Source of the DNA: an uncultured Planctomycetales bacterium
GTDB taxonomy: Bacteria > Planctomycetota > Planctomycetia > Isosphaerales > Isosphaeraceae
Assembly (NCBI GenBank): GCA_903926465.1
Contig: CAIYJE010000145.1
Coordinates: 1 to 64,000, forward strand
Direction: 5' to 3'
DNA: 64,000 nucleotides
Shown here: one piece after another, positions 19,758-27,927 of the stretch
How positions within the stretch are numbered: position 1 is the stretch's first letter
How the letters are laid out: the number at the start of each line of letters is the position of its first letter
Position numbers and translations under genes: made by a program
The notes under the pieces: model-generated
The model's database searches: none
What the model saw: only the letters and a program-made list of their open reading frames with translations
Told to the model about the DNA's origin: nothing

Positions 19758-21227
19758 ATGAAATTACCCATGCCGGCTGCTTTGGTGCGAAACCTGTGGA
19801 TGATCCTTCTCATCTGGCTGGCTCCATGCGCATGCCGGTTGTACGGAGATGACACCAAGCCGGTTACGTTCGACGGTCCGGTGGCGGCCATTTTCAAACG
19901 GCATTGCGTGCAATGTCATGGTGATTCAAAGCAAGAGGCCGGCCTGAGCCTTGCGGGTTATGACGAGGTTGTGAAGGGTGGAAGCGGGGGCGTGGTTGTG
20001 GTGTCTGGTCGGTCGAGTGCCAGCCGCCTGATCGAGGTGATCACGGCCGAGGAACCGACCGAGCGAATGCCGCCCAAGAACGACCCGTTGCCGGATGAAG
20101 CGGTGACCTTGTTGAAAGCCTGGATTGACCGCGGGATCAGGCAGAATTCAGAGAGCGCAGGGGTTGCTGTGAAGGCCCTTGGGTTCCGGCCGTCGGGGAT
20201 GTCAAAACTGGAGGGGCCGCCGCCGATGCCGCAAACGCTGCCGGCGTTTGAGAAGCCAAAGACGGTGCGACCGTTTCCCGTGCTGGCCCTGGCCGCAAGT
20301 CCGGTGGCCCCCTTGGTGGCGTTCTCGGCGTATGAAGCGATTAACCTGGTAGATTCGGGCTCTGGGCAGGAGCTAGGTGCGCTGGCGTTCCCAGAGGGAG
20401 AGCCGCACGTTTTGAAGTTCAGCCCGTCTGGCGCGGTACTGCTGGCGGCTGGTGGCCGACCGGTGCAGTCTGGGTTGGCTGTGTTGTTCGACGTGAAGAC
20501 AGGCAAGCGGCTGGCCGAGCTTGGCAATGAGGCCGATGCGGTGCTGGCGGCCGACCTCTCTGCGGATGAACGGCGAGTGGCGCTGGGCGGTTCTGGTCGG
20601 GTGGTGAAGGTGTTTTCAACCGAAGACGGGTCCTTGCTCCACACGCTCAGCAAGCATACAGACTGGATTACTGCCCTGGCGTACAGCCCCGATGGCAAGC
20701 TGCTGGCCACCGCGGATCGTAGCGGGAGCATTCACCTTTGGGACGCGGCCACTGGTGGCGTGGTTCTGCCGCTGGCGCAACACAAAGGGGCCATTCGCGC
20801 GCTTTCTTGGCGGGCAGATTCTCAAGTGCTTGCATCGTCTGGTGACGATGGGTTGATCGTGTGGTGGTACGTGTCCAGGGGCTGGCCGCTTACCTCCAAG
20901 GCCAATGCGCACCCCCCTGCTCGCCCACCGGGCGTTTATGGCAAGCTTGCCGCCGGTGTGGTAGATGCCACGTTTGGCCACCAGGGAGAGCTGGGGACCT
21001 GTGGCCGAGACGGCAAGGCCCGCCTTTGGGCCGACGATGGTCAGGAACAGCAAGCGTTTTCGATTGCGGAAAGTGCCGTGGCTCAAGCCAAGCCGGCTAG
21101 ATCCACGGGCGTGCCAATGCTGCCCACGCGGGTTGTCTTCTCGTTTGATGGCCGCGTCTTGATTGCTGGAGATTCCTGGGGTCGGCTTCATTTCTGGCCC
21201 ACGGCAAAGGACAAGCCGCCTGAGTGA
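19758..21227 (+). CDS. PSCyt1-type cytochrome with WD40 propeller
   Basis: 489-residue exported protein. Signal peptide to about residue 30, then a planctomycete cytochrome c domain (PSCyt1) with CVQCHG as the haem site and [10 protein letters not shown] as the methionine-containing ligand region. The rest is a WD40 propeller with clear blades such as [20 protein letters not shown] ending in IHLWD, and [20 protein letters not shown]. The ATG at 19758, 13 bases after the preceding stop, gives the signal peptide directly. PSCyt1-WD40 fusions are common in planctomycetes beside DUF1501 genes. They are expected to bind haem covalently outside the cytoplasm and to dock protein partners by the propeller. 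Electron-transfer partner unknown. Confidence 0.9.
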
Positions 21228-21252
21228 GAGCGCGAGCGAGCAGGAGATTTTC

Positions 21253-24200
21253 ATGGAGTGCAGGTTCTATTTCTTGGGTCGAGCCATGGTGCCGGTGCTG
21301 GCTGCGCTGGTGGTACTGGGTTCTGACTTGGCCGCGAGATCGGCCGAGGTTGATTTTGTGCGCGACGTGCGGCCGATCCTGGTGCAGCACTGTTACTCTT
21401 GCCACGGCGAAAAGAAGCAAAAGTCTGCTCTTCGGCTTGATATCAAGGGCGAGGCCTTCAAGGGGGGCTCGGCGTTTGCCCCGGCCATTGTTCCGGGAAA
21501 TGCGGCAGACAGCCCACTTATTCAGTTTGTGAATGGGTCAGACGAAGCGATGCGGATGCCGCCCCAAGGGGCCGCGCTATCGGCCGAACAGGTGGCGGTT
21601 CTCACCCGCTGGGTGGATGATGGGGCCCAATGGCCCGATGGGGTGGATCAGGCGCAGGTTGAGGACCGCCGCGACCACTGGTCGTTCAAGCCGCTCAAGT
21701 CACCAAAGCTGCCTGAAGGACAGGATTCTGCCTGGGTTCGCGGTAATCTTGATCGCTATATCTTGCGCCACCTTGAGCAGGCCGGTCTGCAGCCTGCCCC
21801 AGAGGCCGATCGCGTGACCTGGCTGCGTAGGGTGTCTTTTGATTTGCTCGGATTACCACCCACGCCCGAACGCGTGGCAGAGTTTGTGAATGACTTGCGT
21901 CCGGATGCGTATGAGCGGCTGGTGGATGAACTTCTCGCCTCGCCGAGCTACGGGGAGCGCTGGGGGCAACATTGGCTGGATGTGGTTCGTTATGCCGACA
22001 CGCATGGTTTTGAGGTCAACACCGAGCGGCCGAATGCCTGGCCTTATCGCGACTACGTGATTCGAGCGTTCAATTCCGACACGCCCTATGACCGTTTCAT
22101 TCGTGAGCAGGTTGCCGGTGATACGTTGGGACAAGAGACGGCCACCGGTTTCCTGGTCACCGCCTCTGTATTACTGCCCGGCCAAATTGGTGCCGACGAC
22201 CCGTCCAAGCGGCTGGCACGCCAGGACTCACTCGATGAGATTGTTGTGAATCTGGGCCAGACCTTCCTGGGCCTGAGCATTGGCTGCGCCCGCTGCCACG
22301 ACCACAAGTTCGACCCGATCTCCCAGCGCGAGTATTACTCAATGCAAGCCTTTGTGGCCGGCGTCGAATACGCAGACCGCGAGGTTCATACCCCAGAAGC
22401 CAACGCCATTCGCGCTCAGGCCGATCTCTGGAAAACCCGGGTTTCCCAGATTGATCAAGAGCTTGCGCGGTTTGAGCCTCTGGCCCAGGTGGCCGGCAGT
22501 TTGCCCAGAATCACCAGCCCCAAGCTGAATGAAGAACGGTTTCCCACCACGGAGGCGAGATTCGTTCGGTTCACCATCCATAACACCAATCGGCACCCCA
22601 CCCTGGGCCTGATTGAACCATGCATAGATGAGTTTGAGATCCTGACCGAAGAAGGCACCCCTCGCAACCTTGCGCTTACCAGCCACGGCATCAAAGTCAC
22701 CGCTTCCGGGAGCCGAACGTCGAACATTCATCGGCTAGAACATATCAACGACGGTTTGTACGGCAACAGTCATAGCTGGATGGCAGACACGGCTGGTCGT
22801 GGTTGGGTGCAGTTCGAACTGCCAGAATTGGCCCAAATTGGCTTGATCCGCTGGAGTCGTGACCGCGAGGGGACGTTTGAAGATCGGCTGCCCACGGCGT
22901 ATACCATTGAGGCTGGACTTGCATCAGATAAGCTGACTCGCCTGGTATTCGTGCCACCCGCGCGGCCGGCCGTGAACGCACGCATGAATACCGATCGGAT
23001 TGCACCGGTCAAAACTCGCAGGCTTCGGTTCTCCATTGAGACCACGAATAGCCTGGAACCATGTATTGACGAGCTAGAGGTGTTTGATACCAGCGGCCGC
23101 AACGTGGCCCTGGCGGCCAGTGGTGCCCAGGTTACCTCTTCCGGTGATCGGGAAGAGCCTGGAACGCATGAATTGCGGTTTCTCCATGACGGTCAGTACG
23201 GCAATGGCCATAGCTGGATGTCTAGCGAAACCGGCAAAGGCTGGGTGGTGCTGGAGTTTTCTGGGGAGCCGGAACTGGAACGGATTGTGTGGGGCCGGGA
23301 CCGACAAGGAACCTATCTTGATCGGCTAGCAACGCGTTACAAGATTGAGGTGGTTGATGCTGCTGGCAACTGGCGGACCGTGGCCAGTTCCACGGACCGT
23401 CTGGAGTTCAAGGCAGGCCAAACGGCGGCCGTGACTGGCGGCTTTAGTACGGCCGGCCTGACGGCCGAAGAAACCCGAGTGGCCGACGCCTTGCTTGCGG
23501 AGAAGCAGGGCCTGGAATCCAGAATTGCGGCGGCGTTACGGCAAAACCAGGCGTTTGCTGGTACGTTTCGTGCGCCCGACGTGATTCGCCTGCTGAGCCG
23601 GGGCGACCCCGAGCAGCCAGGCGAAGCGGTTGTTCCGGCCGTGCCTAGTGTGCTGGGCGCACTGGTTCTGCCGCAAGACGCCACGGAAACGCAGCGGCGG
23701 CTGGAACTGGCGAACTGGATTACCAGTCCCTTGAATCCGCTGACTGCGCGGGTGATGGTGAACCGGATCTGGCAGGGGCATTTTGGTCTGGGCTTGGTAG
23801 AGACCTCCAGCGATTTTGGGTGGAACGGAACCCGGCCAACGCATGCCGACCTGCTCGATTGGCTGGCGCAAGAGTTGATTGGCTCGGGGTGGTCGATCAA
23901 GCCGATGCACCGCCTGATTGTCCTTTCGGCCGCCTACCGCCAATCGACGGTGGAAAACCGGGCCGCTTCCGCAAAAGACGCAGACAACCGCCTGCTCTGG
24001 TGTTACCCTTCGCGCAGGCTGGAGGCCGAAACCCTGAGAGACTCAATGCTGGCGGTGAGCGGTCGTTTGAGTATGAAGATGTATGGACGCGGCTTTGATC
24101 TCTTCGATCAGCGGGGCGGGCTTTCGGGGTTCAAGCCTGTGGAGTCGTTTCACGGTGATGGACTCCGCAGAATGATCTACGCACACAAGGTTCGGCGCGA

Positions 24201-24525
24201 ACGTGAGGCGGTGTTTGGCGCGTTTGATTGTCCAGATGCCGGCCAGGCCACCTCGCGCCGGAAAGAGTCGAACACGCCAATCCAGGCCCTGAACCTGTTC
24301 AACAGCCGGTTCACGATTGACGAATCAGAAGCGTTTGCCGCACGCGTGCAAAGCGAAGCCGGCGGTGATGTTCAGGCTCAGGTTCAGATTGCGTATTTGC
24401 GGGCCCTGAGCCGCCAACCCCAACCCGACGAGCTGGCCGATGCGGTGTCCGTGGTGCAAGTGCACGGCTTGTTAACGCTTTGCCGCGCCCTTTTCAACAG
24501 CAACGAATTTCTGTTCGTGCCCTGA
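21253..24525 (+). CDS. PSCyt1-DUF1549-DUF1553 protein with paired discoidin-like domains
   Basis: 1090-residue exported protein with AGGAG 7 bases before the ATG. Order: signal peptide (about 30 residues); PSCyt1 haem domain with CYSCHG (Cys47, Cys50, His51); DUF1549 with a second motif CARCHDHKFDP near 360; two similar discoidin-like beta-sandwich units inserted at about 434-557 and 586-716; then DUF1553 with MVNRIWQGHFGLGLVETSSD and near the end RRKESNTPIQALNLFN. The duplicated units share EPCIDE, NxHSWM and DRLxTxYxIE elements and probably bind glycans. The gene begins 25 bases after the WD40 gene. As with other family members, a redox role in polysaccharide breakdown is a hypothesis, not shown. 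Confidence 0.9.
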   Translation: MECRFYFLGRAMVPVLAALVVLGSDLAARSAEVDFVRDVRPILVQHCYSCHGEKKQKSALRLDIKGEAFKGGSAFAPAIVPGNAADSPLIQFVNGSDEAMRMPPQGAALSAEQVAVLTRWVDDGAQWPDGVDQAQVEDRRDHWSFKPLKSPKLPEGQDSAWVRGNLDRYILRHLEQAGLQPAPEADRVTWLRRVSFDLLGLPPTPERVAEFVNDLRPDAYERLVDELLASPSYGERWGQHWLDVVRYADTHGFEVNTERPNAWPYRDYVIRAFNSDTPYDRFIREQVAGDTLGQETATGFLVTASVLLPGQIGADDPSKRLARQDSLDEIVVNLGQTFLGLSIGCARCHDHKFDPISQREYYSMQAFVAGVEYADREVHTPEANAIRAQADLWKTRVSQIDQELARFEPLAQVAGSLPRITSPKLNEERFPTTEARFVRFTIHNTNRHPTLGLIEPCIDEFEILTEEGTPRNLALTSHGIKVTASGSRTSNIHRLEHINDGLYGNSHSWMADTAGRGWVQFELPELAQIGLIRWSRDREGTFEDRLPTAYTIEAGLASDKLTRLVFVPPARPAVNARMNTDRIAPVKTRRLRFSIETTNSLEPCIDELEVFDTSGRNVALAASGAQVTSSGDREEPGTHELRFLHDGQYGNGHSWMSSETGKGWVVLEFSGEPELERIVWGRDRQGTYLDRLATRYKIEVVDAAGNWRTVASSTDRLEFKAGQTAAVTGGFSTAGLTAEETRVADALLAEKQGLESRIAAALRQNQAFAGTFRAPDVIRLLSRGDPEQPGEAVVPAVPSVLGALVLPQDATETQRRLELANWITSPLNPLTARVMVNRIWQGHFGLGLVETSSDFGWNGTRPTHADLLDWLAQELIGSGWSIKPMHRLIVLSAAYRQSTVENRAASAKDADNRLLWCYPSRRLEAETLRDSMLAVSGRLSMKMYGRGFDLFDQRGGLSGFKPVESFHGDGLRRMIYAHKVRREREAVFGAFDCPDAGQATSRRKESNTPIQALNLFNSRFTIDESEAFAARVQSEAGGDVQAQVQIAYLRALSRQPQPDELADAVSVVQVHGLLTLCRALFNSNEFLFVP

Positions 24526-24579
24526 GCCTGATCGCTGCCCTGTTCTGTGCTCCGACCTTTCAAAGAATTGAGTGAACCG

Positions 24580-26046
24580 ATGGCAATAGATCCGATTCCT
24601 GCCTCCCTGGCCAGGCTTCATCTGCTCGATCGCCGATCGTTCCTCACGAACATGGCCACCGCGCTCGGTTCCGTGGCGCTCACTAGCTTGCTGAGTGCCG
24701 ATCGGTTACTGGCCGATCAGACGGCCTTCGATCCGGCCCGGCCGTTTGCGGGGCGTGAGTCGCATTTTCCGGCCAGGGCCAAGAACGTGGTGGTCATCTT
24801 CTGCGCGGGGGCGGTGAGCCAGCTCGAAACCTGGGATTACAAGCCGGAGTTGATCAAGTTTGATGGCAAGCCGTTGGAAGGCGGCCCGGCGGTCACCTTT
24901 CAAGGCCCGACCGGCGAACTGGCCCGGCCCCAGTACACGTTTCGGCCGCGTGGTCAGACTGGCAAGATGGTGTCGGACATGATCCCGCACCTGGCCGAGT
25001 TGACAGACGACATTGCCTTTGTGCATTCGCTGACCAGTAAGAGCAACACGCACGGACCGGCCGAAAATTTTCTTTCCACCGGCTTCGTGCTGGACGGGTT
25101 CCCGAGCCTGGGTTCCTGGGTGACCTATGGGCTTGGCAGTGAGAATCAGAACCTGCCGGCGTACGTGGCCATTCCAGACCCGCGTGGGGTCCCCCAGAAC
25201 GGTTCGAACAACTGGGGGCCGGGCTTCTTGCCCGCGGCCTTTCAGGGGACACCGTTTACGGCCAAGGAGCCGATCCGGCACCTGAGCCCAGTTGGTGTGG
25301 GTCCAGAGGCCGACGATGCGGCCCGGTACTTGTTGCAGCGGATGAACCGGCGGCACATGGAACAACACCCGGGAGACGGTAAGCTGGCCGCACGCATTGC
25401 CAGCTATGAACTGGCGGCACGCATGCAATTGAGCGTGCCCGAGATCAGCGACCTTTCCACCGAGCCCGCGCATATCTTGAAGCTCTACGGTGCCGACGAC
25501 ACGGCCAACCCGCTCAAGGCCTCGTTTGCGCGCAATTGCATTCTGGCCCGCCGCTTGATTGAGAAGGGCGTCCGGTTCGTTCAACTGTTCAACGGAGCCT
25601 ATGCCAGCGGCGGCGAGTTGAACTGGGATGGCCATAACAAGCTCAAGGAGCAGTATGACAAGCATGCGGCCATTCTGGATCAGCCGGCGGCCGGGCTGAT
25701 TCTGGACCTCAAGCAGCGTGGCCTGCTGAGCGATACCCTGGTGGTATGGTGTACCGAGTTTGGCCGCATGCCCATGTTCCAGAAAGGGGCCCAGGGGCGA
25801 GACCATAACCCAGATGGGTTCACCTGCTGGCTGACTGGGGCCGGCGTGAAGCCGGGCGTGAGCCACGGCGTGACCGATGAACTCGGCCGCAAGGCCGTGC
25901 ACGATATTCACCCGCTGTATGACTTCAACGCCACCATTTTGCACCTGCTGGGGCTGGACCACGAACGGCTGACCTATGAGCACAATGGCGTTCAGCGCCG
26001 GTTGACAAACGTGGAAGGCCAGGTCATCCGCGAAGTGCTGGCGTAG
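24580..26046 (+). CDS. DUF1501 secreted protein
   Basis: 488-residue DUF1501 protein with a Tat-like leader ([20 protein letters not shown], residues about 17-36). Family features are [19 protein letters not shown], an HGPAENFLS loop, [21 protein letters not shown], and [14 protein letters not shown] followed by GRDHNPDGF. It belongs to the DUF1501 subtype that follows large PSCyt1-DUF1549-DUF1553 genes, which is its position here (54 bases downstream), and differs clearly from the other three paralogues in this window. The ATG at 24580 is chosen over an in-frame GTG 33 bases upstream because the leader starts close to it. It is the last gene of the co-directional set. Activity unknown. Confidence 0.92.
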
Positions 26047-26415: not shown

Positions 26416-27585
26416 ATGATCAAGGCAACACGTTTGGTGCCCGCCTTTGCACTGGCGGCCTGCGCGGCCGGTTGGATCTCGCCGGCGGATGCGCAGCAGA
26501 CCGCACAGGCACAGCAGGACGAGCGTCCCCTGAGTCCGGACCTGGCCCAGTTGCGAGAGACGGTGGCCGATCGTCTTGAGGAAGTGGCCGATAAGCTGAG
26601 CCTCACGGCCGAACAGCGAGACAAGATCAAGGCCGCTCACGCGAGCTATGCGGAACGGTATCAGGAACTCCGCAAAGCTCGTCATGACCTGCTGGAGGCT
26701 GAGTTCCGCACGATGAAAGAGATTTTCACCCCGGCTCAGAGTGAAAAGGTCAAGAAGTGGGTCGATGAGAAGATTGAACGCGCTCGAACCGCCGTCGCCA
26801 AGCGGGAGTGGCCTTACATCCGCGCCCCTCATGAATCTCTCAACGATGAGGTTCAGGCGGCCGCCGACCGGTTGGGCCTGACCTCCGGCCAGCGCACCCA
26901 GCTTCGTGATGCGCACAAGGCGTTTGTCGATCGGTACCGATCACAGCACGCCGAGGTTCGCTCGCTGGTGGAGTCGGAACTCAAGTCTCTCAAGGAAATT
27001 CTGACCCCCGATCAGCGGGAACGGGTTCACCAGTTCGTAGAGGGAAGATTGGCCCAGGCACCGGCGGTGCAGTCGGTGGCCGAACGCTTGCACGCAGCGG
27101 CCGATAAGCTGGATCTTTCCAGCGAGCAGCGTGAAAAGATCCGCGAGACTCATCTGAAATTCGCCGAGCGTTATCACACGCTGCGCCATGAGCGCCGCGA
27201 ACTGATGCATTCCGAGTTCATGGCCCTGGGTGCGGTTCTCACGCCTGAGCAGAAGGAGAAGCTCGAAGAGATGCTGGAGGATCGGGTGGTGGTTGTGGGT
27301 GTGGAATTCGACCCCAATGACCCGAGCACCATCACGGTCTTGAGCGAAACGATCCGAGATCGCCTGGACGCGGCGGCTGACAAACTGGGTCTGTCGTCCG
27401 ACGAGCGTGCCAAGGTCAAACAGATTCATGCGGGATATGCAGAGAAGTACAAGGCCCAGCATGCCAAACGGAAGGAACTGCGTCAGGAAGAGTTTCAGGC
27501 CCTCAAAGAGATCTTGACCCCTGAGCAGCGTGAGAAGGTGAAGAGTTACATTGAGGACAAGGTTGAGACGGCTTCGACCCGCTAA
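26416..27585 (+). CDS. Four-unit Spy/CpxP-like (LTXXQ) exported protein
   Basis: 389-residue protein with a signal peptide (cleavage after ADA, about residue 26) and an almost wholly helical, charged remainder. It consists of four similar units, each with two LTXXQ-type motifs exactly 41 residues apart: 63/104, 155/196, 234/275 and 326/367 (LTAEQ, FTPAQ, LTSGQ, LTPDQ, LSSEQ, LTPEQ, LSSDE, LTPEQ). Between the motifs runs a conserved helix like YAERYQELRKARHDLLEAEF. Single units resemble Spy and CpxP, periplasmic ATP-independent chaperones or stress sensors that carry two such motifs. A four-fold array is unusual. Role inferred: periplasmic chaperone, metal- or stress-responsive factor. It appears monocistronic, with a hairpin terminator after the stop. 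Confidence 0.82.
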   Translation: MIKATRLVPAFALAACAAGWISPADAQQTAQAQQDERPLSPDLAQLRETVADRLEEVADKLSLTAEQRDKIKAAHASYAERYQELRKARHDLLEAEFRTMKEIFTPAQSEKVKKWVDEKIERARTAVAKREWPYIRAPHESLNDEVQAAADRLGLTSGQRTQLRDAHKAFVDRYRSQHAEVRSLVESELKSLKEILTPDQRERVHQFVEGRLAQAPAVQSVAERLHAAADKLDLSSEQREKIRETHLKFAERYHTLRHERRELMHSEFMALGAVLTPEQKEKLEEMLEDRVVVVGVEFDPNDPSTITVLSETIRDRLDAAADKLGLSSDERAKVKQIHAGYAEKYKAQHAKRKELRQEEFQALKEILTPEQREKVKSYIEDKVETASTR

Positions 27586-27630
27586 GATCGGTGGTCCGCT
27601 TGATCGCCGGCTCAACGTCTGAGCACAAGG

Positions 27631-27677
27631 CCTCCTGCCCTGGGGTTCACCATGACTCCGGGTGCCAGGAGGTTTTG
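27631..27677 (+). terminator. Probable intrinsic terminator after the Spy-like gene
   Basis: CCTCCTG (27631-27637) pairs with CAGGAGG (27666-27672), and TTTTGTATTTT follows at once. The long loop contains further pairing potential. It sits 46 bases after the stop of the Spy-like gene. The rest of the 342-base gap up to 27928 shows nothing else convincing; the frames open across it look like chance. Confidence 0.6.
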
Positions 27678-27927
27678 TATTTTGGTTGGCATTTGGGGCG
27701 GGTTGCCAGACCTTGGCGAAGCAATTGTGGACGAAATTGTTCGTGCTGGACAGAGTTCTGCTGAAACATCGGTTGTTGCTGGCTCTGCCATCTCGTGGTG
27801 GGCTATGGGGCCGGCTAGAATCAAGGAATGGTCCTGGGGTTGGCTTTCGTCGAGGTCAGCCTGGGCGCTCGATTGGGCCTGGGCCGTCTGCGCTGTGGCT
27901 ACGTCCTTCATTCACAAAGGGTACCGT

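Follow-up and report, generated by a model that had tools for sequence, protein, structure and literature searches.

Positions 26416 to 27585 of the window (the whole 64,000-nucleotide stretch of contig CAIYJE010000145.1 analysed here, from an uncultured planctomycete) encode a protein with eight LTXXQ motifs. The question raised by this gene is whether such a chain is a string of Spy-type chaperone cradles or is assembled from some other building block. The parts of the locus are listed below; each unit runs from 16 residues before to 57 residues after its first motif (74 residues).

26416..27585, plus strand: gene of the four-unit LTXXQ protein, 389 amino acids plus stop, with two full-length homologues
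26416..26493, plus strand: signal peptide, residues 1-26 (MIKATRLVPAFALAACAAGWISPADA, followed by QQ), called by eye from the sequence
26554..26775, plus strand: unit 1, 74 amino acids, motifs LTAEQ (26602-26616) and FTPAQ (26725-26739)
26830..27051, plus strand: unit 2, 74 amino acids, motifs LTSGQ (26878-26892) and LTPDQ (27001-27015)
27052..27066, plus strand: five-residue link between units 2 and 3 (the 79-residue step), constant in all three homologues
27067..27288, plus strand: unit 3, 74 amino acids, motifs LSSEQ (27115-27129) and LTPEQ (27238-27252); also modelled
27289..27342, plus strand: 18-residue link between units 3 and 4, which together with the end of unit 3 includes DRVVVVGV
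27343..27564, plus strand: unit 4, 74 amino acids, motifs LSSDE (27391-27405) and LTPEQ (27514-27528)
27625..27678, plus strand: candidate transcription terminator, a strong hairpin followed by a T-rich stretch (-35.7 kcal/mol, z -2.6)

The LTXXQ-like motifs start at residues 63, 104, 155, 196, 234, 275, 326 and 367. The motifs of a pair are 41 residues apart in all four units, and the steps between unit starts are 92, 79 and 92 residues. These values match exactly those given in an earlier note on this DNA, with the caveat that the strict LTxxQ form is found in five of the eight motifs, FTPAQ (104), LSSEQ (234) and LSSDE (326) following a looser pattern. Aligned gap-free, the units of the window protein are 34-46% identical, with scores 10.9-13.8 standard deviations above those of shuffled sequences; unit 2 is the most divergent. 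When the three homologous four-unit proteins described below are considered together, L15, L17, E50 and Q62 are invariant in 12 of 12 units, and comparison of units with composition-preserving shuffles gives z values of 8.6-14.8. Judged by these alignments, the four units are true repeats, beyond chance similarity. Because no direct DNA repeats of 16 or more bases are left in the gene, the duplications are old, and neither recent amplification nor faulty assembly accounts for the array.

Signal peptides were recognized, by eye and with no predictor, in the window protein and in both homologues. In the window protein, LAAC at residues 13-16 (C16, 26461-26463) forms a possible lipobox beside the signal peptidase I site between ADA and QQ; unlike the window protein, neither homologue has a cysteine in the signal peptide. 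The hairpin at 27625..27678 lies directly 3' of the gene and was missed by a terminator consensus scan. Upstream (21163-26046), there is a typical planctomycete gene pair, encoding a PSCyt1/PSCyt2/PSD1 protein with an F5/8 type C domain and then a DUF1501 protein. No gene neighbours are common to the three genomes compared, the neighbouring genes in these genomes contain no pointer to envelope stress, and a CpxAR-like pair adjoining the four-unit gene is absent.

Two homologues share the full four-unit organization. The protein from Singulisphaera sp. GP187 (G009) is 45% identical over 371 residues, and the search of the window's own family yielded one full-length relative among 45 genomes, including that of the window. 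The third four-unit protein, from a genome of another family (G572), was added by searching 397 genomes belonging to the class and shows 34-36% identity. The four-unit form was detected in 3 of these 397 genomes, and in one of the 43 genomes of the family to which G572 belongs; because in the large searches no more than a few top candidates per genome are scored, such frequencies are lower bounds. Both homologues keep all four pairs at 41 residues, with unit steps of 92-79-93 and 88-79-95. The link between units 2 and 3 is five residues long in each of the three proteins, the outer linkers drift (steps 88-95), and the DRVVVVGV stretch of the window protein has the counterparts DRIVLIGV and DRVVVVDV. 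The retention of the units, the 41-residue spacings and the 79-residue step at 34-45% identity suggests selection on the four-unit layout. No relative was found in plasmid and viral collections. The distribution of the form is patchy and the neighbouring genes differ in each genome, so that loss and horizontal transfer are indistinguishable. No annotated family of four-unit LTXXQ proteins was found, and the open-access literature contained nothing relevant on planctomycete LTXXQ proteins or on LTXXQ tandem repeats. The four-hairpin fused form is rare but real.

The 92-79-92 pattern had been taken as a sign of two successive duplications, a scenario that predicts units 1 and 3, and units 2 and 4, to be sisters. 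In AU tests, the split of 1+3 from 2+4 is the cheapest (the costs of the three splits are 2.9, 6.1 and 8.7 log units), and none of the three is rejected (p-AU 0.21, 0.21 and 0.13). The unit tree is mostly unresolved, with long branches. The trees thus choose no order, and the step pattern is no guide either: across the homologues the 79-residue step is constant while the outer steps drift from 88 to 95.

The protein belongs to the LTXXQ family. The window protein scores 45.2 bits against PF07813 over four stretches, and both homologues score higher (63.3 and 62.6 bits), all above the curated cut-off of 24.3; the LTXXQ motifs lie at predicted helix starts, as expected for PF07813. When the unit profile was searched against PDB sequences, Spy ranked first (E 8e-5 to 4e-4). 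The score against the Spy equivalog NF007769 is 32.5 bits, below the cut-off of 174. Spy and CpxP of E. coli do not have the 41-residue pair that the note ascribed to them: each has one pair, with the motifs 73 residues apart (K-12 genome) and middle helices intervening, versus 41 in every unit here. Each unit lacks about 32 residues of the middle of Spy, which are part of the client-binding region of that protein; this stretch is part of the middle helices that give the cradle its shape. The profile comparison of the unit with Spy/CpxP yields 86% over only 22 columns, and the pI values of the three four-unit proteins (6.4, 7.3 and 5.5) differ from that of Spy (9.45). The two-sequence profile also matched DnaJ, but too weakly (E 0.025) to be taken into account.

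A closer counterpart of the unit was found among planctomycetes, in a widespread family of single-hairpin LTXXQ proteins. The unit profile matches five of these at 98.4% over 62 of its 74 columns, and the 41-residue spacing was observed in 39 of the 39 distinct single-hairpin proteins measured, some of which are closely related, by a script that accepted spacings of 38-44; one further locus had no qualifying pair. Unit matches with E <= 0.001 were found in 68 of 99 related genomes, a few of them in two-pair or larger proteins. The contrast between the single-hairpin match and the match to Spy/CpxP identifies the building block as the planctomycete minimal hairpin. What is new in the window protein is the fusion of four such minimal hairpins.

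Structure prediction, which had been proposed as a check, yields helical hairpins. The full-length AF2 model (two sequences) contains four of them, with pLDDT mostly 70-80 within units; overall, its mean pLDDT is 60 and pTM 0.38, and it gives no arrangement of the units relative to each other. The one-unit AF2 model (unit 3, eight rows; mean pLDDT 81) has helices at 8-18, 23-59 and 64-82. The G572 homologue was left out of the structure runs. In this predicted, all-helical fold, each unit would have a short helix, then a 37-residue helix whose start coincides with the first LTXXQ; a 19-residue helix, starting at the second LTXXQ, would fold back. Across the twelve units, the hydrophobic pattern is that of a tidy buried core, most exposed positions are charged, and no obvious hydrophobic client patch is apparent in it. 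This pattern fits a packing with the short helix on the start of the long helix, the last helix on its end, and a polar middle. When the unit model, a small helical unit, was compared with the PDB, including solved Spy chains, neither Foldseek nor VIA-align returned any significant match at all. The matches of the full-length model to PDB structures were only meaningless long-helix ones, as expected at a pLDDT of 60.

Our best explanation of the four-unit protein, a tentative one to which we give not quite an even chance, is a secreted, periplasmic, multivalent holdase-type or scaffold protein that acts independently of ATP. Weak contacts of single units with exposed or unfolded envelope proteins would add up through the four linked copies; the periplasmic site, client binding and multivalency are what we infer for the four-unit protein. 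We counted in favour of the holdase or scaffold the PF07813 membership and kinship with Spy, whose chaperone activity is experimental, the match to the single-hairpin proteins, the helices of the unit model, the signal peptides and the retained four-unit layout. We counted against it the undefined arrangement of the units in the full-length model, the absent middle of Spy, the non-basic pI, the lack of an obvious hydrophobic client patch and the uninformative gene neighbours. The main alternative is a passive helical rod or spacer, spanning or filling the planctomycete periplasm, or else a platform on which a single partner docks; in either case the protein would not be a general chaperone. 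The helices are highly charged (36-39% D/E/K/R), the buried-core pattern is tidy, unit length is constant, and the constant 79-residue step suggests a fixed geometry between units 2 and 3. However, the nearest relatives of known function are chaperones, and the variable outer linkers (steps 88-95) do not suit a rigid rod of fixed pitch. We consider this explanation somewhat unlikely and nevertheless a serious rival to the holdase or scaffold.

The covalent array of cradles proposed in the note would have antiparallel units pairing within one chain into two linked cradles, each binding clients on a concave face. In its favour are the sequence homology of the unit to Spy and a number of units, four, that could pair two by two, but the spacing is 41 rather than 73 and is that of the single-hairpin family, and the profile match to Spy/CpxP spans only 22 columns. 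Because the units lack the middle of Spy and the proteins are not basic, a chain of cradles is improbable. Metal sensing or resistance, in the manner of CnrX, ZraP and other Metal_resist members, is less credible still: Spy itself shows an overlap of the LTXXQ and Metal_resist profiles, and in the window and Singulisphaera proteins a histidine follows the first motif by twelve residues in seven of the eight units, but the score of the Metal_resist profile (PF13801), 7.7 bits, is far below its cut-off of 29.2, the G572 protein contains just one histidine, and, the initiator methionine aside, the three homologues have no Cys, His or Met in common. The several weak, spurious Pfam matches to other helical families might evoke a coiled-coil-rich protein that resembles LTXXQ only through low-complexity charged helices. 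This explanation, to which we attach almost no weight, is refuted by the 41-residue spacing in three homologues, the gap-free units, their invariant residues and the z values above.

The suggestion that the architecture is new stands in so far as the four-unit form is rare and no annotated family of it was found; it has to be tempered because longer LTXXQ arrays, of 13-16 motifs, occur in other planctomycetes. The proposed search for multi-pair planctomycete proteins, besides the two four-unit homologues, yielded such arrays and two-pair secretins. A 766-amino-acid protein of genome G053 (L102:1575-3872; G053:C1:1425574-1427871) contains 16 LTXXQ-like motifs in eight pairs, and proteins with 13-15 motifs are encoded in G502 (L106) and G690 (L107/L108). 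The G053 protein seems to consist of four two-pair modules in tandem, the motif spacings being 18-58 residues. Nothing on arrays of 13-16 motifs was found in the open-access literature. Other LTXXQ proteins of the window's own genome (L088, L089 and L090) also have more than two motifs, at irregular spacings. Multiplying LTXXQ pairs is therefore a wider habit of planctomycetes, within which the window protein is a variant with a regular register.

Secretin-like proteins of about 1230-1290 amino acids carry an N-terminal two-pair LTXXQ region (L087:1-3783, minus strand; L099, L100, L101 and L103); Secretin_N domains were confirmed in L087, L099, L100 and L103. L087 adjoins GspF-like and pseudopilin-like genes. 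In another planctomycete, a 265-amino-acid secreted two-pair LTXXQ protein (L086:2937-3731, minus strand) is encoded between GspF-like and GspE-like genes, a position that suggests a tie of LTXXQ proteins to type II secretion.

A broader reading, speculative and in our judgement rather unlikely, is that fusion of LTXXQ hairpins has given planctomycetes, more than once, multivalent periplasmic chaperone arrays unlike the two-chain cradle of Spy, with the copy number per chain setting affinity. It would cover the four 41-residue hairpins here, the 13-16 irregular motifs elsewhere and the two pairs on secretins. If the units bind clients, the naturally occurring forms with one, two, four and eight pairs could be used to test directly how valency determines affinity and release in an ATP-independent chaperone, and would provide a first functional handle on many planctomycete envelope proteins that are absent from the searchable literature.

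Among known systems, Spy shares with the four-unit protein the LTXXQ motifs at helix starts and the signal peptide. Its chaperone activity is experimentally established, and it works as a cradle of two chains whose concave face is basic and which has hydrophobic patches (PMC8144458, PMC3910116). Spy is thus a basic, dimeric cradle with one pair at 73 residues, whereas the protein described here is near-neutral and has four pairs at 41. CpxP of E. coli likewise has an LTXXQ pair and is periplasmic, the site we propose here, but its spacing is 73 and it has CpxAR as a partner, with no CpxAR-like neighbours at this locus. The long arrays of G053, G502 and G690 resemble the four-unit protein in having many LTXXQ pairs per chain, and the start of the G053 protein is similarly signal-peptide-like; they differ in their 13-16 motifs at irregular spacings, which are not of the 41-residue hairpin type. 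The single-hairpin LTXXQ proteins of planctomycetes (about 110-200 amino acids) share the spacing of 41 and mostly have a recognizable signal peptide; they are distinguished by a single unit with an LPxxxGKLGL lead-in and without the SVAERL helix found in the four-unit protein.
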